A stretch of DNA of 21,965 nucleotides from Nephromyces sp. MM_2019 (Eukaryota > Apicomplexa > Aconoidasida > Nephromycida), in the NCBI GenBank assembly GCA_015657535.1, contig JADHZB010000867.1, positions 1 to 21,965 of the forward strand. Direction: 5' to 3'. Shown here piece by piece: positions 1,961 through 17,733 of this stretch (the first letter of the stretch is position 1; every line of letters begins with the position of its first letter). Position numbers and translations under genes: made by a program. The notes beneath the pieces are model-generated. The model was not told the origin of the DNA, did no database searches, and worked only from the letters and a program-made list of their open reading frames with translations.

Positions 1961-3748
1961 TTATTTATCTTTATTTTCTACACATTCTATATATTCTTTG
2001 AAACGTTTAATTCGTGTTTTACCAACACCTTCCATATCCCAATTATGAAAATGTGTATGTAGTGTTTCATCCATTTTATTTCCCTATAATATATTTTAAA
2101 AGTATATAAATATGTGTATATAAATATATATATATATATTGATATAGATAAATGTGTGTAGACTATAAAGGATAAACTATATAATTTAGAGTTTAGTGAT
2201 TATATATATATATAAAATTTTGGTGTGTGTTAAGTTTATATAAAATATATGATTTTTGAAATTGGTTTATAAGGTGCATTCAATGAGTAATAAAAAAAGA
2301 AATAGTATTATATATAAATATTACGTTTTGGATATCTTCTTCATTGTTTTGAATTTCTGTAATATTTCCATTATAAAATCGTTCAAATTCTTCCCTTTTT
2401 AACATATGATCAGTTGCCTTTGATTTAAGATATTCTATTAATTTCTCTTCAGACCAATGGCTCATATAAGCTGATTTATATTGAAAATATAGCCTGTTTA
2501 TTGAGTTATAAATAAAAAGTAAAGTGTGAAGGTTTTAAAATTTTATAAATTGGTGAATCATGTACACCACACACACATTTGGTATAAGAGAACCTTTAAA
2601 TGTCAAGAACAATGTCAAGCCTATACTCATATGAATTTGGAGAAAACATAAAAACATTAGTCTGGGGAGCATGAACACACATGTTAAAAAAAATAGTACA
2701 TATCATAGCACCTAAACCTACATCTCGAAATAAAGAGAAGAGTATGCATATCCAAATCATTAATATTTGTAATAAGTCAAACAGATGATCGAATTACTTA
2801 GATCTCCGAATCATACGTAAAATACACACACATACACATAGCAAACCTTCTTGTTAACTTCTTGACAAGACTTCTTGGTTTGAGGAGTTTCTCGAGATGA
2901 TCTTTATCGAGTGCAGTTAAGTCGTCTCCCTGGTTATTAAAAATTCGTTTTCTCTTCTTCATGATAATCCACTGTGCCTTTTGAGAGGTGAACTGGAGAA
3001 TATCTTCCTCGTGATTTTTCCAGTCCTCCATATGTTTTTTCTTTTCTTCGATAAATTCGAAGAAGTAACTATCAAGTTTGTTCCAGGAGACGCCATGTGA
3101 ATTGGAATATTTCCATAAATTCTGTAGTCGGATTTTATTAAGGTATATTTGATTTACATCCTCTGGAGGGATTGTTGAGTTCTCGGGATTGGAAGGTGTT
3201 GTAAAGTTAGTTTTATCGGTGTTATCTGTCTGTATGCCCTCGGGATGGTTTTGTTTTTCTTGCGGGTTAGTAGGCAAGTGATTATCTCCAAGATGAGTGT
3301 ACGGGTGCATGTCTTGAACTTTAGACAAGTCCTGGTTGATATTTGTGGTCCCGTTAGGTCCGTCCGGGAGGTTATCTGTTTTTTCTTCCTTGGAGGGATC
3401 AGGGGTATTTGTAGAGGATGTGTTGGTTGGTGACTTCCACACATAAAATGGCTTGAGTCGGCTATTGTGGATGAGAGGGTTAGGCCAGAAAGAAGACATT
3501 TTAGGGTAACTCCTTTCGACCCAAGGAGAGTCGCATACAAATCCATCAAGATTTGCTCTTTTAAAATGCTGAGAAACTCTCTCTTTAACAACGTTTTCCT
3601 CAAGTTTCTGTGGGCTTGTGGGAAGTGTAGATGTTATAGGGGTAACGACATGTCCCCTGATAAACCTCACCAAATGTTCTGGAGGTATTGGCTCAGAGGA
3701 TATGGTCGAAAAATGCCTAATAAATTTACTTAAACGGGAAAACTCCAT
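1961..3748 (-). CDS. Putative mitochondrial protein, three exons, 397 aa, family unknown
   Basis: Exons on the minus strand at 3748-2847, 2493-2325 and 2083-1961 (TAA). Junction phases are 2/1 and 0/0; introns are 353 and 241 nt. The donor after KKLTR is GTTTGC, and joining it to the acceptor ACAG restores an Arg codon and continues as LYFQYKSAYMSHWSEEKL. I chose the start MEFSRLSKFIRHFSTISS because it reads as an Arg/Ser amphipathic presequence; an in-frame ATG five codons upstream (MYIHE) is the alternative. Residues 1-105 look folded (PNPLIHNSRLKPFYVW near 90-104). Residues 106-195 are Thr/Asn/Pro/Gln-rich low complexity. Residues 200-397 are Lys/Glu-rich and helical with many aromatics (DSYFFEFIEEKKKHMEDW; HTHFHNWDMEGVGKTRIKRF). 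No enzyme motif is seen. It could be a lineage-specific mitoribosomal or respiratory-complex protein, but that is a guess from the presequence alone. The gene model is well supported; the function is not. Confidence 0.86.
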
Positions 3749-4992
3749 TTCGTGTATATACACTTATTATATATGGTTCATTTGGGTGAAATCTTCATTT
3801 CTTTATACGTTTTTATATATTATAAAATTCAATGTATATATTTATACACGTTGTTCACATTTCTCATTTGTGTGAACATCTACTTTTTGTGTATATATAA
3901 ACTATGTAGAAAAGTTGTTAACATTTTTAATTTTATAGCAATTTTAATACAGGTGTATCAATGTAGTATAATACCTTTGTATGTGTCTGTATATGTGTGT
4001 GTAAGACTGTGTTTGTATGTTTATATGTTACTTTCTATATATATACATGTGTGTGTGTATGTTATTGTGCCTTTGTAAGATCCAGTTTAGTTTATACAAG
4101 TGTGTTTCTCATGTATGTGTAATATTCACATTATATGTGATAAATATTTTTGCATGTGAATTATAAATATATGTATATATATACAAGTTTAATGTTTAGA
4201 TTTAATAGTTTAAGTGAAGGGAAATGTTATTAAATTATTGTAAAGATATAGGTAGCGTTTTGTAATAAATAAAAAAATTGGTTAAATTTGATATTTATAA
4301 TTTTTGGGATAGAAGTTGAATAGAGAAGGAAAATTTTAAAAATAAAAATGAATAATTTAAATTTTGTATTTCAAAATTATAGATTATCCACTGTAAGAAA
4401 ATTGAATAAACACATTGTGTAGATTGGAATGAGTATGTGAACACACATATTATTAATGTTTAGTAACAAAAGCGCACACGTTATGTTGAATCGTATACAA
4501 GTATATTGAGTTAAAAGTCATAAACACACAGATTTCTAATCACACACAACTTGGATCATACTTAAACTTTTAAATTCATGTATACACATTTTAAATCATT
4601 TACACAAATATTTTGTATCAAACATCTATTTTTCTAAATCACACATACCTTCTAAATCGTACATGCGACTTAAATGGATCACACACACGCATCACAAAGG
4701 TCACATATACAAATTACAAATATATATTAAACACATGTATTTTACACACATGGTAGATATATATAATTTTCATAAGATTGGTCCTGTAATCATAAAACGC
4801 TATGTAAAATGTGTGTGCGAGTGTGTGTAAATATCTTTTCCCAATTTGAAAAAGTGTGTGCTGTTTAATCCATATTTTCTATTCCTCTTACTCTTCACAA
4901 TGATGAATTTATTTTATCGAAAATTGATAATTTGGTGTATGTGTATGTGTGTGTACGAGTGTGTTCTCTAAAAAATTATCACACACCAAATT
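3749..4992. other. Intergenic spacer with TG then CA repeats
   Basis: This lies upstream of the gene starting at 3748 and downstream of the gene ending at 4993, both on the minus strand. The plus strand is TG-rich at about 3955-4160, AT-rich at 4180-4400 and CA-rich at about 4440-4760, with a loose repeat of AAATCACACACA type, then TG-rich again near 4808-4965. It must contain the promoter of the 397-aa gene and the 3' end of the 97-aa gene. I see no exon. Confidence 0.5.
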
Positions 4993-5893
4993 TCACTCAA
5001 ATTCATTTTCACTGGGTGGTAATTTACCTTCTTCACGTGCAAATCGTATGAGCTCCATCAAATGTTTTCTTTGTTGCTATTTAGTGATTAATATATACAC
5101 ACACATATATAAATATATATAGATTCATATATAAAAACAAATAAAATCATATATATAGATACATACGCATACATAAAACACACTTACGCATTCATACAAA
5201 CACACATACGCATACACACATATATATACAAACATAGATATACACATACAAACAAATAACTTACTTCTTTACGAACATAATGTTTCCAAGATCGATGAAC
5301 AGAGTCATTCCATAGAAAGAAGGCAGAAATACCTAAGTTTTGAAAATTGTTTTTAAATTTAATTTAAGTGTTTCAATTACACATATATACACACACACAC
5401 CAACGCATTTACATATAAAGATTTTACACATTTCAATGATGTGTGTAAAGAATTTTTGTTTATAGAATTTACTGTGTGTGTAAATCAATGGGCGATTTTA
5501 TCTATATATTCCGTTCATATGTTAACTTGTGTGTGATTATGAGTGTGTATATGTGTTTGAGTAATGATTCGAGCGTAAACAGGAGATAGAATTATATAAA
5601 TGAAGGCTTGTATGTATGTGTGTATCATAAGATTTTCTGTGTGTATGTATATGCAAATATGCATGTTTGACGTCAAGTAGACAATCATCATAAAATTGTG
5701 AGTCTATAGGTTTATATATATATAAGTGTGTGTATATATAAATAAATGCATTTACTTGTGTGTATCTGTGTATGTGTTTATGTATAAATGTATGTATGTA
5801 TAAGTGTTTATGTACAAATATATATGTTTATGTGTGTAGGTGTGAATTTATATACAACTCTCTATGTGTATGTGTATGTTTATATACATCTCT

Positions 5894-5925
<32 letters not shown>

Positions 5926-6093
5926 TTGTGTGTGTGTGTAAAATGATTTACCAATGTAGGTTGAGGCCCCAATGAGTGTGAAAATAACAGTACGATGGAT
6001 TGAGTCGTACACTTTATCTTTTCTTAAAACAAATGCAAACCAATTATACCTCTTCCAAATAAAAGAAAATGGTTGAAAGCGTGGCCCAGCCAT
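4993..6093 (-). CDS. Small single-span membrane protein, three exons, 97 aa
   Basis: Exons on the minus strand at 6093-5952, 5332-5265 and 5076-4993 (TGA); junction phases 1/2 and 0/0; introns 619 and 188 nt. The second donor is a canonical GTAAGT. The product starts MAGPRFQPFSFIWKRYNWFA. A hydrophobic helix follows at about residues 35-55 (TVIFTLIGASTYIGGISAFF), interrupted by the first splice junction, then WNDSVHRSWKHYVRKEQQ and a charged tail ending LPPSENEFE. The basic aromatic N-terminus, one membrane helix and a short charged C-terminal domain are the build of accessory subunits of mitochondrial inner-membrane complexes. I cannot assign it to a named subunit. The length is plausible for a complete protein, and no extra exon is needed because it has its own ATG and stop. 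An ER membrane protein is the alternative. Confidence 0.85.
5892..5940. repeat. (TG)n microsatellite
   Basis: Nearly pure TG dinucleotide tract with two TTTG interruptions. It lies just inside the first intron of the 97-aa membrane protein gene, about 11 nt from the donor at 5951, so the sense transcript carries (CA)n there. Confidence 0.9.
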
Positions 6094-7387
6094 TGAATAA
6101 AATATGTGTGTGTGTGTGTATGCTTTTTAAGTTAAATAAAATGTGTAAACTCTATAAGTGAATATATATGAGTAAACTATTCAATATGTGTAGCTTAGAA
6201 AAAAAATATTTGATTTTAACTTAGGAGTAAAAATCTTAGTGAGTTTATGTGTGTATGTATATATATATTTATATATATTATAATTAATATTGCCTACATT
6301 TCATTATATAGCTTAATTATATATAGTTTTAGTATTACTTTGCCGCTACTCTACATATATATATGTGTGTATGTTTGGAGTATGTGTATGGAGCGCGTGT
6401 GTAAGGTATGTGCTTGTGTTGAGTTGCATGTTTATGTGTAGTGTGTATTGATTGAGTTTTGTGTAGATATGTGTATTTGTGTCTGTAATATGTTGAATTT
6501 GTGTAAATGTGTGTATGTGGCAGGTTTGTCTAGGTGAATGTGTATGTTTGTGTGGAGTGTGTGTAGATAAGTGTATATATGTAAATAAAGTTTTTGTGAA
6601 TGTGTGTGTGTGTGTATATTTGTATATGTGTGTAAAACTTGTTTTTTTAATATTATTTTTTTTTATTTTTATTAATCTTTTCAGTATTTAACAAAATGTT
6701 AAAATTATTTCAAATAAATTCAAAACTAAATAAAATTTTATAACAATTTAAATAGTCGATTTGAGTTGAAAATTTTAATCAAAATTATTATCAATATGAA
6801 AAAATATTGAAAAAAATAAAATAAAATAGTTAAAAAGATAATATTGTATGTTTGTATATATATATATATTTACTCCTTATATTTTTACAAATTTAAAACT
6901 GGTTACAATATGTGTAACCATTATTTGATATGATTAGAGCACAAGTCAACTTCAAATTTCAAATTTAAATTTAATCAAAAATACACTCATAAGTTATATA
7001 TATAATATATTATCATGTATATCATTGAGATATATATCCATTATACACACTCACACATATATGCAAAATAAATATGTAAACCACAACATGGATACATATC
7101 AATTATATATATATATATATAAATCAAATCTATCAATTGAAACAATAATCTTGATTATTTAAACACTCACACACGTCAATAATACTCACATATCATTAAC
7201 ACACATACCTCAATAGTACCTACACATTAGTAATACATACATAACAATAATAGATACGCATCAATAATGCCTATTTATCAATAATACATACATATCAATA
7301 ATACATATACAAAAATAATACATACATATCAATAACACATATACAAAAATAATACATACATATCAATAATATACACACAGATTCAAT
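6094..7387. other. Intergenic spacer, TG-rich then AT-rich then CA-rich
   Basis: Upstream of the 97-aa gene and downstream of the 118-aa gene. The plus strand is TG-rich to about 6640, very AT-rich with A/T homopolymers at about 6640-6960, and CA-rich at about 7020-7380, where it ends in a 34-bp tandem repeat. Apparent reading frames here are Val/Cys-rich translations of TG repeats. I see no exon with matching splice phases. Confidence 0.5.
7287..7380. repeat. 34-bp tandem repeat, about 2.6 copies
   Basis: Copies at 7287-7320 and 7321-7354 differ at one position; a third, partial copy runs to about 7374. The unit begins CATACATATCAATAA. Degenerate CAATAATAC units extend the array leftwards to about 7175. 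It abuts the stop codon of the 118-aa gene. Confidence 0.85.
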
Positions 7388-7744: not shown

Positions 7745-9174
7745 TTTCGCTAGAAAAAAAAATTCAAAAATTTTAGATGAGGGTGGGGGGCATGTTGGGT
7801 TAGGTGTAAGTGGTGTCGGAAAGTTATATGTATATATATATATATGCAGCAGGGTTTAGGTTTGTTTATATACTTATATTGGTGTATATGTGTGTGTGTG
7901 CGTGTCTTGAGATTTAGTTATATATATATATATATCTATGCATGTGTGTATGTCTGGAGAATTAGTTATATATATATTTATAAATATGTGTGTGTATAAG
8001 GGGGTAAGGTGGAGGACAATGGAAGGTTATATATATATCTGTACATATGTTTATATACAATTAAGGGTTGTACACACCTGATTATAAATTTATGCATATG
8101 TGCGTGTATGTTTAGAAGGTTTATGTACACATTTGTTGTTTATATAAGTGTGTTTGTTTAGGGAGGTTATTATATACACACAGGAGGTTCATATATGTAT
8201 GTGTGTGCGGGTCTTACACACACCTGAGGCATTTATATTTGGGAATTGGGAATCATATACGCATTTGATGATTATATATATATATGTATGTGTAACAAAA
8301 GGTTTATTATTTACAGACTTGATGATTATATAAATTTTTAGCAAGTGACGAGATATAGTATAGATAGTGTGTGTCTGATTGTGTGTATAACTAATAAGTG
8401 CTTGTTATATTATGTGTGTGCTTCTGTGTATAATGATGTGCATGTGTTTCTATGTGTATACTAGAGTGTTAATATCTTTGTGTAAGATAAAGTGTGTATG
8501 TCTGGAGTGTGAATAGTAATGTCTGTATATTTTAATATCTATAATAATGTGTGAGTGTAAGTGTATATAATAAATGTGTGTGAGTAATTTATAATGAACA
8601 AGTGTGTTCAATATAATAGATGTGTGTGTAATATAATAAATGAGTGTGTATAGTGCAAAAATTATGTGTATGTAGTATAAAACTGTGTATATTATGTGAA
8701 ATTTAAGAGTAATTGAAATAAATTCGAATTCATTTGAATTTTTCAAAATATAAGTTTTAACTTTTAGATATTATTTATAATTAATAATGATATTCTATCT
8801 TAAATGATGTGTGTGTGTGTGTGTTTGTGTGTATGTATTTGTGTGTGTGTGTGTGTTTGTGTGTATGTATTTGTGTGTGTGTGTGTGTTTGTGTGTATGT
8901 ATTTGTGTGTGTGTGTGTGTNTGTGTGTATGTATTTGTGTGTGTGTGTGTGTTTGTGTGTATGTATTTGTGTGTGTGTGTGTGTTTGTGTGTATGTATTT
9001 GTGTGTGTGTGTGTGTATGTGTTTGAATAAGTTTAAAACTGTTAAATTTTAAATGATGGAAATAATTTGAAATTTAAAATTCACTAAAAAACATTATTAA
9101 TTTCTTAATCATTTTAATCATATCTAATTTTATTTTTTAATTGTGTAAATTCTTTGATTTTACAAAAATGAAAA
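7745..9174. other. Intergenic spacer with degenerate TG repeats
   Basis: Upstream of the 118-aa gene and downstream of the methyltransferase gene. A G-rich patch (about 7777-7820, plus strand) lies 35-75 nt before the 118-aa ATG. From 7820 to 8340 there are loose repeats pairing GGAGGTTATATATATA-like blocks with TG runs. From 8345 to 8700 there are TATAATAAATGTGTGTG-like units. A 32-bp minisatellite follows, then AT-rich sequence. No exon found. Confidence 0.5.
8806..9020. repeat. TG-rich minisatellite, about 32-bp unit, six copies
   Basis: The block GTGTTTGTGTGTATGTATTT starts at 8821, 8851, 8885, 8917, 8949 and 8981, giving spacings of 30, 34, 32, 32 and 32 bp. The block is constant and the pure TG run between blocks varies by 2-bp steps. 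Base 8921 is N, inside the block of the fourth copy. All three plus frames are open only because TG repeats contain no stop codon. Confidence 0.95.
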
Positions 9175-9236
9175 TTATTCGGATGAATGTGTGTAATTCT
9201 GACATGTTAAAGCGTCTACCTATAATAATATAAATT

Positions 9237-9267
<31 letters not shown>

Positions 9268-12200
9268 GTATATTTATATATGTGTATATATTTAAATTAC
9301 ACATCACATCTTCAGATGTGTGTATGCGTATGTGCGGTGCGTGTGTGTCTTCAGTGTGTGTAGTATTTATGTTTATAATGTGTGTGTGTGTGTTCATGGG
9401 TGTACGTATATATGTGTGTATGTATATGTATGTGCGTGTATATATATATGTGGAACAAACCTTCTTGATAATATAAATATTATATTCCATCAAACCACTT
9501 GCAAAGGCCCTTTGCATTGTGTGTAAACACCAAGCATCTTTAAAAAATTTAGTAAGTTTTCTGAAATTGAAATTTTAGAGGGAGATTGTTTATTGATGAT
9601 GAATGTGTAAATTATTAAAAAAATGTGTGTAAAAGTTAAGCTTGAATTATATCTANTATATATATATATGAATATTATATATGTTGCTATCTACACATGT
9701 TCTTTGTTATATAATGTTTACTTTAAATTATTTATCTAACTTGGGGATCAGTGTAAATGTGTGCAAATGTGTGTGTAACTTTAGGGATGTGAATAAATGT
9801 GGGCAAATGTGTGTGCAGCTTAAAAATGTGAATAAATGTGGGTAAATGTGTATAATTATAAAATGTGCATAAATGTAAAATGTGTATATATGAGTAAAAT
9901 GAGTATAAATATAAAATGTGGGTAAATGTGCAAAATGTGTATAAATGTAAAATTTGCATAAATGTAAGATGTGTGTGAATTTAAAATGTGTAAAGCTAAT
10001 AAAATTACGTCAGTTTAGTTATCCAAGGCATTGGGTTTTTGGCCCCAAGGTAAATAAGGTGATACCAAGAAGGTAGTGTGTATCTCGTCCAATTATCGGT
10101 ACAAATAATCTCACACTTACCTGTATAGATGTGTTATCGTGTGTGTGTGTTCGTGGGTGTGATTGGCTGTGATTTTGTGTGTGTTATTTTGTATAGGTGG
10201 TTGTGTGTGTGATTAGGTGTGTGAATGTATACATGTGTTAATATCTATATATGTTTTTAGATGCGAGTGTGTGTGAGTGTGTGTGTAATAGGATAGAATT
10301 TAATAACCTGAATCTCTGAAATATCTCTCAGTTTTCATTCTGTTTGTAAAGGGATAGTGTCCCCATTCTAAAACACACACACATTTACACACAAAGTAAT
10401 TACCTTATATAGTTTGAATAATGTATGTTTCATTTATAAACCTATAAATATTAAGTGCCATTCGAATCAATACACACACATTAACACTAAACACTATATT
10501 ACAAGCACACTACACACACACACACACACACACACATACACACACACTTCACATACACACACACTTCACATAGTGTGTGTGAAAATATATATTACGAGAG
10601 TATAGATAATTGAGTGTGTTGGTATCATCTACAGTAAATGGCCTTGTTGAACTATCGCGTTCATCCCAAGAACAAATAATAATTACACCCCCTGGTTTAA
10701 GGCATCTTAACATGTCATTATAAAACCTAAAAAATGTGTGTATAATTTTGGTGTATGTGTGTGTGTACGTGTGTATTTGTGTGTGTGTGTATATATATAT
10801 GGGTGTGGGTGTGGGTGTGTAGTTTGGGTGTGTAGTGTGTGTGTGTGTGTGTGCGTGTATGGATGTTGGTGTGCAGTGAGAGTGGTTGGGTATGAGTAGT
10901 GTGGGTGGATGCATGTACAGTGTGTGTGTATATAAATTACATTCGTGTAAATAAAGGTGTGGGTGCGCAAAAAAATTCATATTGATGTATAATTTGCTTG
11001 AATGTGTATATAGGTGCAATTTGAGATATACATTGAATAAGATGTGTGTTTTGAGTGTGTGTGTAATATAGGGGTGTTGTTATGTTTAATTTAAAATCGA
11101 TCATGTGTGTGAAATTCAAGTCATTATATACTGAACTAACTTCTCTCGGTCATACATATGCTCTGTTGACTCACACACCCAAAATAGTGAGACAGAGTTT
11201 GGTTCAAAATCCATATCCATAGCATCCATGTGCTGTATATTTATATGTATATATTTGTTTGTATATGTGTTTTGGTGTATATGTGTTTGTGTGTATATGT
11301 GTATATTTGTTTAAAAGTGTGTGTGAATATGTGTGTATATATATGTGTGTGTGGATTGTTATGAAACAAAAATATATACACACAGATATAAACATAGCTT
11401 AAATTTGAAATCGGCTCAATTAAATATACAACTCATATATGCATTCAATAGATCAATACACACACAAATTAACTCAATATAATTTGTAGATAAAACACAC
11501 GTATTTAATTAATAGGTCATGTATATATGTTGATTAGCTCGATAAATTACCTATACATATACAACAAGTCAGTATATTATATATATATATATACATAAAT
11601 GTTTAAAAAAACATAATTACATATAAAACAAATCATACACACAATTAATAAGGTTATAAATGAGTTAGAGTATACTCACACACGTTTATGAACATAATTT
11701 TATTTGTATTAAAAAGAATGAAATAATAAAAATTGAATTACACACTATAAAATTGGGTCTTTGTTCTTCAGGGATATTTTGATTATAAGTTTTTGCCATT
11801 TTGAGCTGAAATATATACACACATATATGAGGGCATAGGCATACACACACACTCACATATATATATATATGAATGAGTTATAAATAAGGTTCTAAGCAAC
11901 TCAATTCACACTCTGTTTTCCACTAGCTTAACATGGTGTTCCAAATACACCCTTACAAGCACTTTATACGCATCCCACACACCCACCACCCCCTACACAC
12001 GCACAAACTACCCCACACAAACACACACAGCCCCACTAAACGCACACACCACCCAACCTACACACACACACCACCCAAACTACACACACACACTACCCCA
12101 CACATGCACACACACTACCCCACACATGCACGCACACCACCCAATCTACACATTCACACACCACACCCCCCCCACACACACGCCACCCAATTCACACACA

Positions 12201-14252
12201 AATACTTGAATGGGTGAAATATTTATACCCAAAACTTCAGTGTTTGGAAATATTTGTTTCAATAGGCGAGAAGTTGCACCCAAACCACAGCCAGCATCAA
12301 CAATCATCCCATCTGTTATATCTAAACCTTTGGATTTCATAAGACTAACTAATTTATAAACTAATTGATCACAGGCCTACACACACACATACACACGCAT
12401 TGGATTGTTACAGTATAATGTGTGTAAAGTGTGACATGTGTGAGTATAAGGAAGAGATAATATACGTGTTGTCGTTTGTTTGATGTGTGTGGTTTGATAT
12501 AGGTGTTGGATGGTTGGTGTGTGCAATTATATATATATATATACTTTGGGTAGATCCAGTTTACTATAAGGTAAATTTAATTGAGTTTCTTCATAATACC
12601 TAGTCAATAAAAAAGTTGTTAAATTTACGTATTATAATTTATATCTGACAATATATTTTACACACATACATATCCTGAATATACATAGATAGACACTCAG
12701 AATAGAATACTATATACACACACGTCCAAAAACACGCACACCAATGCTTACACAATACACACAAAACCCAAAATACTTACACCTATACTTAAACAATACA
12801 CACACACACCCTAAAACATATCGAAACGCAAGCACACAGATGCATATACGCACAAAAGTACACACCCATTAATAAATATTTGAATACACACATTAATAAA
12901 TACACACAGACACACCCCAAATGAAGATGATCCTTCCAGTAAACTTGTAATATCTTATCCTCTGCCCACTCATCATATGCTTCAGATACACACTTGTTTG
13001 AATCCGTCTTTATTGAGTATAATTGAGTGTGTAAATTTCATATGTATGAGTGAGTGTGATTATAAATAGGTTACATGTGTGTATAGAGAATGAGTGAGAA
13101 AAGGGATTCTCATATATTAAACCATATAAGTAGTGTGTATATACACACACACATAGTTATGCTTGATTTGTCACATATATATATATATATATTATATACA
13201 TGTTATTAAAAATATTATGTATATGTCATGTGTATACACACACAGATAGTTACGCTCACTATGTGTTATATATAATGTGTGTGTATATATTATATAAGCT
13301 TACAACAGCTTTCCTACAAGGTGTGTTTAGATATTTGTATGAGTAGTAAATGCCAGCACAAACAGATGCAAAAGCTATTACTGAAAAGTATACACAAATT
13401 TAAATTAGACACAAATTGTATATTACACACTAACTGAAAATTACTCACAATTTAATATAATATTGGATATAATATCACCAAAATTACATACTTAAAATTT
13501 ACATTGAAAATTATGCACACATTGAAAATTACACAGACATCGAAAATTACATACACATTAGAAATTAAAAGACATTGAATATTATACACATATTGAAGGT
13601 TATACACATTTAAATTTTACACAATTTAATTTTTACCATAAGCTTTTGAGAAGCCCAATAAAACGATCGTAAATGAAGATATATCGGGTCCTTTCTAATT
13701 TAATTAAAAATTTTACAAATTTAGCATGAATTAATTATACACTTGAAATTCACACACACATACATAAATTTACACATAGACAAATTTACATACATACATA
13801 CATCAATTTATACCCACACACAATTCAATACATAAAAAAAAGAATTCAACTACACACATACAAACATTGTAAATATCACAACACATGAACAAGCATGCAA
13901 CATATCGAATCACATATATATAAATATATATATATATATATCACAACACACACAAATAAATGTATCATATTACACATACACATACAAATAGATATAACAC
14001 ATTACACACACACACACAAACAATTATAACACATCACATACACATACACAAACAGATATATCACATCACACACACACACGCACAAATATATCACAACACA
14101 CATTTTAAGTGTAAAATGTGTATAAATCAAACCAATAAGTTGTTGTTAGAAATGTTTTCGGCTTCATTAAATATATCTTCCCCAAAAATTTTTGGAACAA
14201 ACAAAAACATATTTTGGATGATTTGAAATAAAATAAATTTGCTTGAAAACAT
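9175..14252 (-). CDS. SAM-dependent methyltransferase, gamma-tocopherol methyltransferase-like, 12 exons, 373 aa
   Basis: Exons: 14252-14133, 13694-13637, 13380-13304, 13007-12916, 12599-12545, 12376-12206, 11805-11746, 11232-11132, 10726-10596, 10120-10009, 9560-9461, 9219-9175 (TAA). All eleven junctions are in phase; introns are 168-513 nt. It is a class I Rossmann methyltransferase. YDEW (96-99) and WKDHLHLGYY (109-118) match the family's N-terminal YDE...WGDHMHHGYY signature. VDAGCGLG (160-167) is SAM motif I, followed by GINISPIQ. DAMDMDFE...FWVCESTEHM (214-237) is the acidic motif with the EHM signature. LKPGGVIII (254-262) is motif III. The C-terminal cap includes MQRAFASGLMEYNIYIIKK. 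The closest family known to me is gamma-tocopherol/MPBQ-type ring methyltransferases, though the substrate cannot be read from sequence. Residues 1-80 are an extra N-terminus with a membrane helix near 49-75, so it is probably organelle- or membrane-bound. The weakest junctions are exon 4 (acceptor AATAAAG) and exon 10 (acceptor CAG followed by GTAAGTG). Confidence 0.93.
9241..9300. repeat. (TA)n microsatellite
   Basis: Long TA tract inside the last methyltransferase intron, about 20 nt upstream (in the sense direction) of the final-exon acceptor. Confidence 0.85.
9745..9995. repeat. Degenerate AAATGTGT tandem array
   Basis: Repeating units of about 12-18 bp built on TAAATGTG and AAAATGTGTATAAATG occupy most of methyltransferase intron 10, from about 14 nt past the donor. 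Units have diverged, so the period is only approximate. Confidence 0.75.
10511..10581. repeat. (CA)n tract ending in a 9-bp hairpin
   Basis: A CA tract (10511-10547) with two CTTCACATA interruptions ends in CACACACAC (10556-10564), an 8-nt loop and GTGTGTGTG (10573-10581). The hairpin sits 14 nt inside methyltransferase intron 9, next to the donor at 10595. Confidence 0.8.
10740..10930. repeat. TG/GGGTG-rich tract in methyltransferase intron 8
   Basis: The plus strand carries repeated GTGTGT with several GGGTGTG units (10801-10833) and GGGTGG further right. It lies close upstream, in the sense direction of the minus-strand gene, of nothing but intron; the sense RNA here is CA/CCCAC-rich. Confidence 0.7.
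11950..12190. repeat. C-rich CACC/CCAC tandem array in methyltransferase intron 6
   Basis: The plus strand has many CACACA units punctuated by CCCC and CACCC runs, including two near-identical copies of a unit based on CTACCCCACACATGCAC near 12113-12130 and just before it, and a run of eight C near 12165. It is almost free of G on the plus strand, so the pre-mRNA of the minus-strand gene is G-rich with about eight GGG or longer runs. Confidence 0.85.
13400..13615. repeat. Degenerate ACATTGAAAATTACAC array
   Basis: Loosely repeated units of about 18-25 bp (ACATTGAAAATTACACA and variants) fill most of methyltransferase intron 2. Similarity between copies is moderate. Confidence 0.7.
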
Positions 14253-16566: not shown

Positions 16567-17733
16567 ATGGAAGATTATGAAGTAAAACTCTTTGGTAAAT
16601 GGTCATATGAAGACGTCGACACCACTGACTTCTCATTGGTTTGTGTTTACATAGATATTACATAACTTAAAATTAAATCACTCCAGACACTCTAACATAG
16701 CTTTTTACTCATTGACTAATTCATCCCCTCTAAAAGAAAACCACCTGGTGTTCAAGATTACACCCAAACATCCACATCATAGTTACTGCGGGCTGACGCA
16801 GCATCTGTATGTGTATTGTATGTACATTACACAACTTTCTTCTTCTCCTCTTCTTGATAAACATATATATCTCTATCCTTCTTCTCTATGTGTCCTTCAG
16901 GTTGACTACATCTCAATTAAGGGTAAGGCTAAGGTATTCACCCCACACACTGCTGGAAGATATCAAAAGAAGAGATTCAGAAAGGCACTCTGCCCCATTG
17001 TAGAGAGACTTGTCAACGCCTTGATGATGAAAGGAAGGTTAGCATGAATACTTCCTTCCTTTTAGACAGCATTCTAATCATTTATACATTACTTCTCAAC
17101 TTAGAAACAACGGTAAAAAAATTATGGCAATCCGCATTGTTAAGCAATCTTTTGAAATCATCCACTTATTGACCGATAAGAATCCACTCCAAGTCCTTGT
17201 AGATGCCGTCAAGAATGGTGGTCCCAGAGAAGATTCAACTAGAATTGGCTCTGCTGGTGTTGTCCGCAGACAGTCCGTTGATGTCTCCCCACTCAGAAGA
17301 GTTAACCAAGCTATTTACCTAATCTGTACCGGTGTCAGGTTCGTATATATGTTACATAGTTAATGAAGATCTTACTTGACACAGTCTATATTAGTGGTAT
17401 ATGAGCGTTGCGAACATTTAAACACCCCTATTCAATTTTTGGCTATAAATTATATTTATAAACCCATTTGTTCTATACATAGGGTTTTTTTAATGCTATG
17501 TTATATGTTTAACATTTCTTTAATTATTTAGTATACTCCCTATAACTAGATTGAACTTCTAATTAGATACTCTGCATATTTTTTTTCACCACAGAGCTTC
17601 TGCTTTCCGTAATGTTAAAACCATGGCTGAATGTTTAGCTGATGAACTCGTAAACTGTTCAAAAGAATCACCTAATAGCTATGCTATCAAGAAGAAGGAC
17701 GAAATTGAACGTGTTGCCAAAAACAATCGTTAA
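16567..17733 (+). CDS. RPS5: 40S ribosomal protein S5 (uS7)
   Basis: Exons at 16567-16638, 16901-17037, 17105-17338 and 17595-17733 (TAA), coding for 193 aa; phases 0/0, 2/1, 2/1; introns 263, 67 and 256 nt. uS7 is a small-subunit head protein that contacts the 3' major domain of 18S rRNA and the mRNA/E-site tRNA region. Family hallmarks are all present: [81 protein letters not shown] and the C-terminus [18 protein letters not shown]. The length matches eukaryotic S5 lacking the long N-terminal tail. The first exon ([20 protein letters not shown]) is variable between lineages, and the [14 protein letters not shown] stretch resembles apicomplexan S5. Codons end in C or G more often than in the other genes here, as expected of high expression. 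This is the most certain gene in the window. Confidence 0.98.
16747..16813 (+). ncRNA. Candidate structured RNA in uS7 intron 1 (hairpins)
   Basis: A GC-richer island in the first uS7 intron has two stem-loops. GGTGT/ACACC (16747-16751 with 16760-16764) is followed by a two-part stem: CACAT/ATGTG (16773-16777 with 16809-16813) enclosing CTGCG/CGCAG (16786-16790 with 16797-16801), with an internal loop of 8 and 7 nt. That internal-loop layout resembles half of an H/ACA snoRNA, and ribosomal protein introns often host snoRNAs. Clear H and ACA boxes and a guide target are not established, so this is a weak call. Confidence 0.22.

Follow-up and report, generated by a model that had tools for sequence, protein, structure and literature searches.

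We analysed a 21,965-nucleotide stretch of DNA deposited under Nephromyces sp. MM_2019 (assembly GCA_015657535.1, contig JADHZB010000867.1, positions 1 to 21,965 of the forward strand; hereafter the window, whose numbering we use throughout) and found on its minus strand a methyltransferase gene divided into 13 small exons. The gene, its family membership, its S-adenosylmethionine (SAM) domain motifs, its hydrophobic anchor and its host affinity are directly supported. We favour the reading, which we hold to be probable though by no means settled, that an apicomplexan related to Cardiosporidium carries this as a nuclear gene encoding a cyanobacterial-type MPBQ/MSBQ methyltransferase, that the gene descends from a photosynthetic ancestor common with the chromerids, and that its product would be an enzyme of the plastid (apicoplast).

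A methyltransferase gene of 13 small exons

Splicing by open frame and GT-AG sites gave a gene that starts at 14252, stops at 9175 and encodes 390 residues. The exons, in order from 1 to 13, measure 120, 58, 77, 92, 55, 171, 60, 92, 131, 60, 112, 100 and 45 nt. All twelve introns are GT-AG and frame-keeping, with lengths of 168 to 513 nt, and the 1173 nt of joined sequence hold no internal stop. An earlier reading of the same DNA (the original prediction) had proposed the same two locus ends, no exon above 171 nt and a coding share of about 22%; the spliced model agrees on all three (1173 of 5078 nt, or 23%). The motifs that it named (YDEW, WKDHLHLGYY, VDAGCGLG, ESTEHM and LKPGG) are also present, in that order, in the spliced protein. 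It had counted 12 exons and 373 residues, an exact model that we could not reproduce; the junctions of the spliced model are all in phase, twelve of them rather than the eleven claimed. The exons are as follows.

Exon 1: 14133..14252, minus strand; start codon, hydrophobic leader (residues 1-24), then an Asn-rich stretch; from open frame and hydropathy, without homology support.
Exon 2: 13637..13694, minus strand; first half of the transmembrane segment; from open frame, splice sites and hydropathy, without homology support of its own.
Exon 3: 13304..13380, minus strand; remaining part of the transmembrane segment, and LNTPxR, a motif found in eukaryotic members of the family; from the multiple alignment.
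Exon 4: 12916..13007, minus strand; YDEWAEDKILQVYWKDHLHLG, the N-terminal motif of the family; from alignment and tblastn.
Exon 5: 12545..12599, minus strand; from the multiple alignment.
Exon 6: 12206..12376, minus strand; SAM-binding motif I, VDAGCGLG; from the Pfam domain match and tblastn.
Exon 7: 11746..11805, minus strand; from the multiple alignment.
Exon 8: 11141..11232, minus strand; MDAMDMDFEPNSVSLFWVCESTEHM; from tblastn.
Exon 9: 10596..10726, minus strand; LKPGG and ICSWDERD; from tblastn.
Exon 10: 10308..10367, minus strand; from the multiple alignment.
Exon 11: 10009..10120, minus strand; DNWTRYTLPSWYHLIYLGAKNPMPW, in the C-terminal half common to the MPBQ-type family; from tblastn.
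Exon 12: 9461..9560, minus strand; AWCLHTMQRAFASGLMEY, the C-terminal motif of the family; from tblastn.
Exon 13: 9175..9219, minus strand; the final 14 residues and the stop; without homology support.

The basis of the model differs between exons. Exons 1, 2 and 13 come from open frame and splice sites only, and many family members terminate near the end of exon 12 in the multiple alignment; exons 3, 5, 7 and 10 are supported by that alignment, without significant single tblastn matches. We also weighed a further open frame at about 11990-11909 on the minus strand as an extra exon but left it out, since exons 6, 7 and 8 spliced directly to one another already align.

Since the exon sites were picked with the family already known, we added a tblastn test on the raw DNA. 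Each of six relatives, searched against the unspliced window, matched at least five of the six exons 4, 6, 8, 9, 11 and 12 on the minus strand and in colinear order (E ≤0.003). The protein P0001 of Vitrella brassicaformis recovered all six, at E 1e-4 to 2.5e-9; in two of the six relatives exon 12 was matched at E 0.17 and 0.26, and the coverage of a partial relative, the metagenome protein P0007, stopped short of exon 4. The best match of any of the six elsewhere in the window had an E of 0.077. Against the whole 48.3 Mb assembly, six of the seven rows returned with the Vitrella protein were this gene (best E 2.6e-7) and the seventh was another methyltransferase (E 0.001). When the spliced protein was used as the query, all 12 rows fell on the same gene; with the E limit set to 1, the assembly showed no second copy. 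The gene is real, beyond what chance would give.

The original prediction described the introns as microsatellite introns, a fair description: runs of TG, CA and TA make up 34% of intron bases vs 9% of exon bases, and 21 tandem-repeat rows, some overlapping, lie between 8700 and 14500. A 32-bp TG-rich tandem repeat (8808-9022; 6.7 copies, 98% matches) was also observed just downstream of the stop codon. The abundance of microsatellites in the introns, together with the fast branch described below, could be read as a sign of a decaying copy that still looks like a gene; twelve GT-AG introns that all keep the frame, a coding sequence open from end to end and a SAM domain above its cut-off argue otherwise, and we judge such a pseudogene improbable.

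Protein architecture

Hydropathy peaks twice near the N terminus. Residues 1-24 form a hydrophobic leader that resembles a signal peptide, and residues 44-71 form a hydrophobic anchor ahead of the YDxWT block, with LNTPCR in alignment; half of this anchor is encoded by exon 2, which itself has no homology support. Then follows a class I SAM methyltransferase domain at residues 160-259 (PF08241, 68.3 bits vs a cut-off of 21.2) and, after it, the C-terminal half common to the family. As regards phosphoethanolamine methyltransferases, the similarity to the PDB enzyme 4krh is confined to residues 146-262 of the query (E 3.2e-8). Proteins of the apicoplast are known to enter it by a bipartite signal, and the leader with its Asn-rich stretch resembles one, suggesting a possible apicoplast protein.

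Membership of the cyanobacterial-type MPBQ/MSBQ family

The best match to the protein was Vitrella brassicaformis P0001 (39% identity over 77% of the query, E 4.7e-67). Also among the top matches were several metagenome and algal proteins, some of which bear the name MPBQ/MSBQ methyltransferase; another, Chlamydomonas CHLRE_14g624350v5, is named cyanobacterial-type. After 16 proteins the E-values jumped from 2e-34 to 1e-14. In a profile search built from three rows, no apicomplexan proper was among the names in the best 120 of 281 matches, many rows of which are nameless. The name Cardiosporidium cionae was likewise absent from the similarity search and from these 120; its draft genome, at 57 Mb, 34.4% GC and 63.7% completeness according to an excerpt of PMC7737231, may be too incomplete, or the match may lie among nameless rows or have escaped a word-based search. 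In a scan of prokaryote genomes, all 80 retained loci (of 277 relatives) were cyanobacterial. An alignment with 16 members spans the domain, and the anchor and LNTPxR/LDTPSR motif align in those eukaryotes that have them.

We then built trees of 43, 33 and 34 rows, hand-picked from 148 proteins and the 80 cyanobacterial loci (12 of the 80 were used); VTE3 rows and phosphoethanolamine methyltransferase rows are absent from all three. In the 43-row tree the query paired with P0007 (support 98/88), then with Vitrella (98/99), inside a 30-row MPBQ-type clade (96/97) separate from the tocopherol-type rows. The 33-row tree, which drops P0007 and nine bacterial or distant methyltransferases, kept the query with Vitrella (98/94), with a weak deep split (74/48); the 34-row tree drops the same nine rows. 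The database search that had been proposed for this protein and these trees place it among the MPBQ-type small-molecule ring methyltransferases.

Single alignment columns point the same way. Thirteen columns separate 29 family rows from four tocopherol-type rows, two of which bear that name; the query matches the MPBQ type at ten of the 13, the tocopherol type at one and neither at two. The 74 columns that are conserved in ≥95% of the 29 family rows give a mixed picture: the query keeps 52, C-terminal motifs included, and has changed 22. Overall, membership of the cyanobacterial-type MPBQ/MSBQ methyltransferase family appears well supported by the trees and the discriminating columns.

Other identities were tried and disfavoured. 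The model for UbiE/COQ5, TIGR01934, gave 39.5 bits vs a cut-off of 158.35; of the 22 NCBIfam models listed, UbiE/MenG among them, not one reached its own cut-off with the query. A sterol 24-C-methyltransferase was set aside since the six Pfam matches (E limit 0.001) do not include Sterol_MT_C (PF08498). A gamma-tocopherol methyltransferase, or another tocopherol O-methyltransferase, belongs to the same superfamily and has similar ESxEHM and LKPGG blocks; the trees place the query with the MPBQ-type rows instead, and in an approximately unbiased (AU) test on the 34-row tree the tocopherol-type grouping, when forced, was worse by 12.6 log units and was rejected just at the border (p-AU 0.047). 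Together with the single agreement in 13 columns, this makes that identity very improbable. The original prediction had left the choice between gamma-tocopherol and MPBQ types of plastid prenylquinone methyltransferase, acting on the ring; the ring methyltransferase and the MPBQ/MSBQ half of that claim stand, and the gamma-tocopherol half is disfavoured.

Four known systems help to place the enzyme. The nearest named relative is Vitrella P0001 (462 aa), whose LDTPSR and C-terminal motifs align with the query but which comes from a photosynthetic chromerid, is only 39% identical and has a much shorter branch. With the cyanobacterial-type enzyme itself (the Synechocystis type; CHLRE_14g624350v5) the query shares the aligned domain and anchor; it differs in its leader, its 13 small exons, its changed conserved columns and its host phylum, which is not usually credited with plastoquinone. 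Gamma-tocopherol methyltransferases (P0089 and P0090) share a class I SAM domain and an ESxEHMxDK block, but form a clade of their own and carry a FYDxSSxLWExIWGEHMHHG motif that is absent from the query. The plant enzyme VTE3/APG1 catalyses the same reaction, whereas its sequence is highly divergent and of archaeal origin, as excerpts of PMC5159609 describe; the reading that we favour names the Synechocystis type and not this one.

The host organism and a mixed assembly

Two neighbours on the same contig, between which the methyltransferase gene sits, bear on the host.

Window 16567-17730 (approximate), plus strand: RPS5, a cytosolic ribosomal protein, in four exons.
Window 2798-3763, minus strand: an mS145-like open reading frame (ORF), matching mitoribosome mS145/mS120 of the solved structures 9fia and 9hqv (E 3.5e-24).

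Among proteins of normal length in the best 120 of 7869 matches, Cardiosporidium cionae was the best match to RPS5, at 85%; the two top rows were longer proteins of lower identity (79% and 55%). A 32-row tree, made from 30 of the 120 listed matches and the two RPS5 genes of the assembly, paired RPS5 with Cardiosporidium cionae (99/93), although the protein is short and the bootstrap incompletely settled. Because of this pairing and the mS145 match, we take an apicomplexan near Cardiosporidium to be the most likely source of the window, in keeping with the apicomplexan-like genome of the original prediction.

The assembly itself mixes at least two eukaryotes, because two loci were found for RPS5 (contigs C469 and C567) and two for L15e (C740 and C222, of different GC), in each case on contigs that differ in composition. 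Compared exon by exon, the two RPS5 loci agree at 80% and 83% in two exons and at 59% in another. A mixed assembly gives room for a contaminant algal gene or a misassembly; the gene is nevertheless flanked on one contig by the mS145-like ORF and the RPS5 that pairs with Cardiosporidium, and composition does not change from one half of the window to the other, which makes this explanation extremely improbable.

A further short ORF in the window (5848-6126, minus strand) matched COX14 (PF14880) just above the cut-off (25.7 vs 25 bits, E 9.9e-6), and a 52-residue piece of it, searched with an E limit of 1, matched nothing in the PDB.

Divergence, pathway partners and the substrate

Several observations weigh against an unaltered MPBQ/MSBQ enzyme at work in the window's organism. 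The query has changed 22 of the 74 conserved columns, and at 11 of the changed columns all four tocopherol-type rows carry the family residue too. A very long branch leads to the query (3.06 changes per site in the 43-row tree, 4.74 in the 33-row tree and 5.14 in the 34-row tree), and its amino-acid make-up is odd. Besides rejecting the tocopherol-type grouping only at the border, the AU test did not reject a placement among the cyanobacterial rows (p 0.22); an arrangement in which 14 eukaryotes are held together without the query gave p 0.068. On balance, we regard MPBQ-type membership as well supported, the exact place inside the family as less so, and a shifted substrate as quite possible.

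The pathway partners add to this side. A UbiA family search of the assembly returned seven rows at three loci, which partial pieces suggested to be COQ2-like, COX10-like and homogentisate phytyltransferase-like. The last, on contig C816 (64500-70000, minus strand), is a multi-exon homogentisate phytyl/solanesyl-transferase gene (NF009525, E 8.4e-61, 206 bits vs a cut-off of 226 from a partial splice), and both a gene query and an NF009525 model search of the assembly found a homogentisate prenyltransferase on C816 only. This enzyme would act at the step before MPBQ/MSBQ methylation. Three samples of C816, however, had a masked GC of 0.39-0.44 vs 0.30 for the window and sorted with C567, the contig of the second RPS5, in a composition test whose labels are only as good as its two references, the window itself and C567; the contig of the COQ2-like gene was ambiguous. 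As the assembly is mixed and C816 sorts with the second organism, we rejected two successive pathway steps in one organism and do not attribute the pathway to the organism of the window, in which the assembly searches placed no homogentisate prenyltransferase. It is possible that composition misleads on C816, because the methyltransferase and the prenyltransferase were each detected once in the assembly.

Family searches of the assembly for HPPD and tocopherol cyclase also gave no matches, at low power. The same kind of search gave none for LYTB, which is expected in an apicoplast-bearing apicomplexan, and the PF08241 search missed the window's own methyltransferase gene, so the HPPD and tocopherol cyclase results are not evidence of absence. 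Small exons weaken such searches; protein queries outperformed them, the Vitrella protein having recovered the gene in six of its seven rows.

The PF08241 search of the assembly returned eight loci, of which we inspected five. These included L001 (C408), which we take by eye to be an arsenite-type methyltransferase, and L003 (C222) and L005 (C838), presumably phosphoethanolamine methyltransferases from their look. The latter pair fell one in each composition class.

These points bear most on a reading with the same ancestry and a new substrate, in which the plastoquinone/tocopherol pathway was lost and the enzyme was recruited to another ring, such as a ubiquinone intermediate or an unknown prenyl-phenol. 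It would explain the very long branch in all three trees, the changed conserved positions and the lack of an upstream enzyme placed in the same organism, and the COQ2-like ubiquinone gene would fit it, on a contig of ambiguous composition. The retention of 52 of 74 conserved positions, C-terminal motifs included, and the UbiE/MenG scores far below cut-off pull the other way; we consider this recruitment unlikely, yet a serious contender.

In the reading that we favour, the gene was inherited from a photosynthetic ancestor common to the apicomplexan and the chromerids. It would be expressed, and the N-terminal leader would carry the protein into the apicoplast, where one helix may hold it to a membrane. 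There the enzyme would transfer the methyl group of SAM to a ring carbon of its predicted substrate, a prenylated benzoquinol, and this methylation would be a late step on the way to plastoquinone or a tocopherol precursor. A stronger claim, that quinol synthesis of the plastoquinone or tocopherol type persists in the non-photosynthetic plastid of this relative of Cardiosporidium with this gene as the ring methylase, we put forward tentatively, as possible but on balance doubtful.

A possible plastid function outside the usual apicoplast list

Excerpts of the literature set the background. The Synechocystis enzyme serves both plastoquinone and vitamin E synthesis and has orthologs in Chlamydomonas and a diatom (PMC5159609, in part). 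Plastoquinol and tocopherol are both ascribed to the plastids of chromerids, although tocopherol cyclase is one of the enzymes reported as missing from the sequence set of that study (PMC6668581, in part). Some non-photosynthetic plastids keep such pathways, with tocopherols in Euglena longa and plastoquinone in a chlamydomonad; the apicoplast is credited in the same excerpts with isoprenoid precursors, fatty acids, heme steps and iron-sulphur clusters, and not with prenylquinones (PMC7580956, PMC7495860). For Plasmodium, tocopherol synthesis has been reported biochemically (PMC6832408, in part; also, from its listing, PMC5634829). Among the papers listed, at the level of titles and the starts of abstracts, we found no report of an MPBQ/MSBQ-type methyltransferase in an apicomplexan. 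A word search of the main text of two papers on apicomplexan plastids, PMC6733595 and PMC6722601, returned no tocopherol-, quinone- or homogentisate- words, nor plastoquinone in PMC6722601.

What is new here is therefore a known enzyme family in an unexpected apicomplexan host, with a function that we predict from its relatives. The C816 prenyltransferase would be a separate finding if the second organism is non-photosynthetic, and if that organism is also an apicomplexan it would show that the pathway was kept more widely. For the question of tocopherol synthesis in Plasmodium, an apicomplexan gene of the MPBQ/MSBQ type offers a concrete and testable protein. It suggests that, in at least one apicomplexan branch, part of photosynthetic quinone metabolism survived the loss of photosynthesis itself. 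Should quinol synthesis prove true, it would be a plastid function absent from the apicoplast lists in the excerpts of PMC7580956 and PMC7495860, and the prenylquinone synthesis that biochemical work has claimed for Plasmodium would gain a first candidate type of gene.

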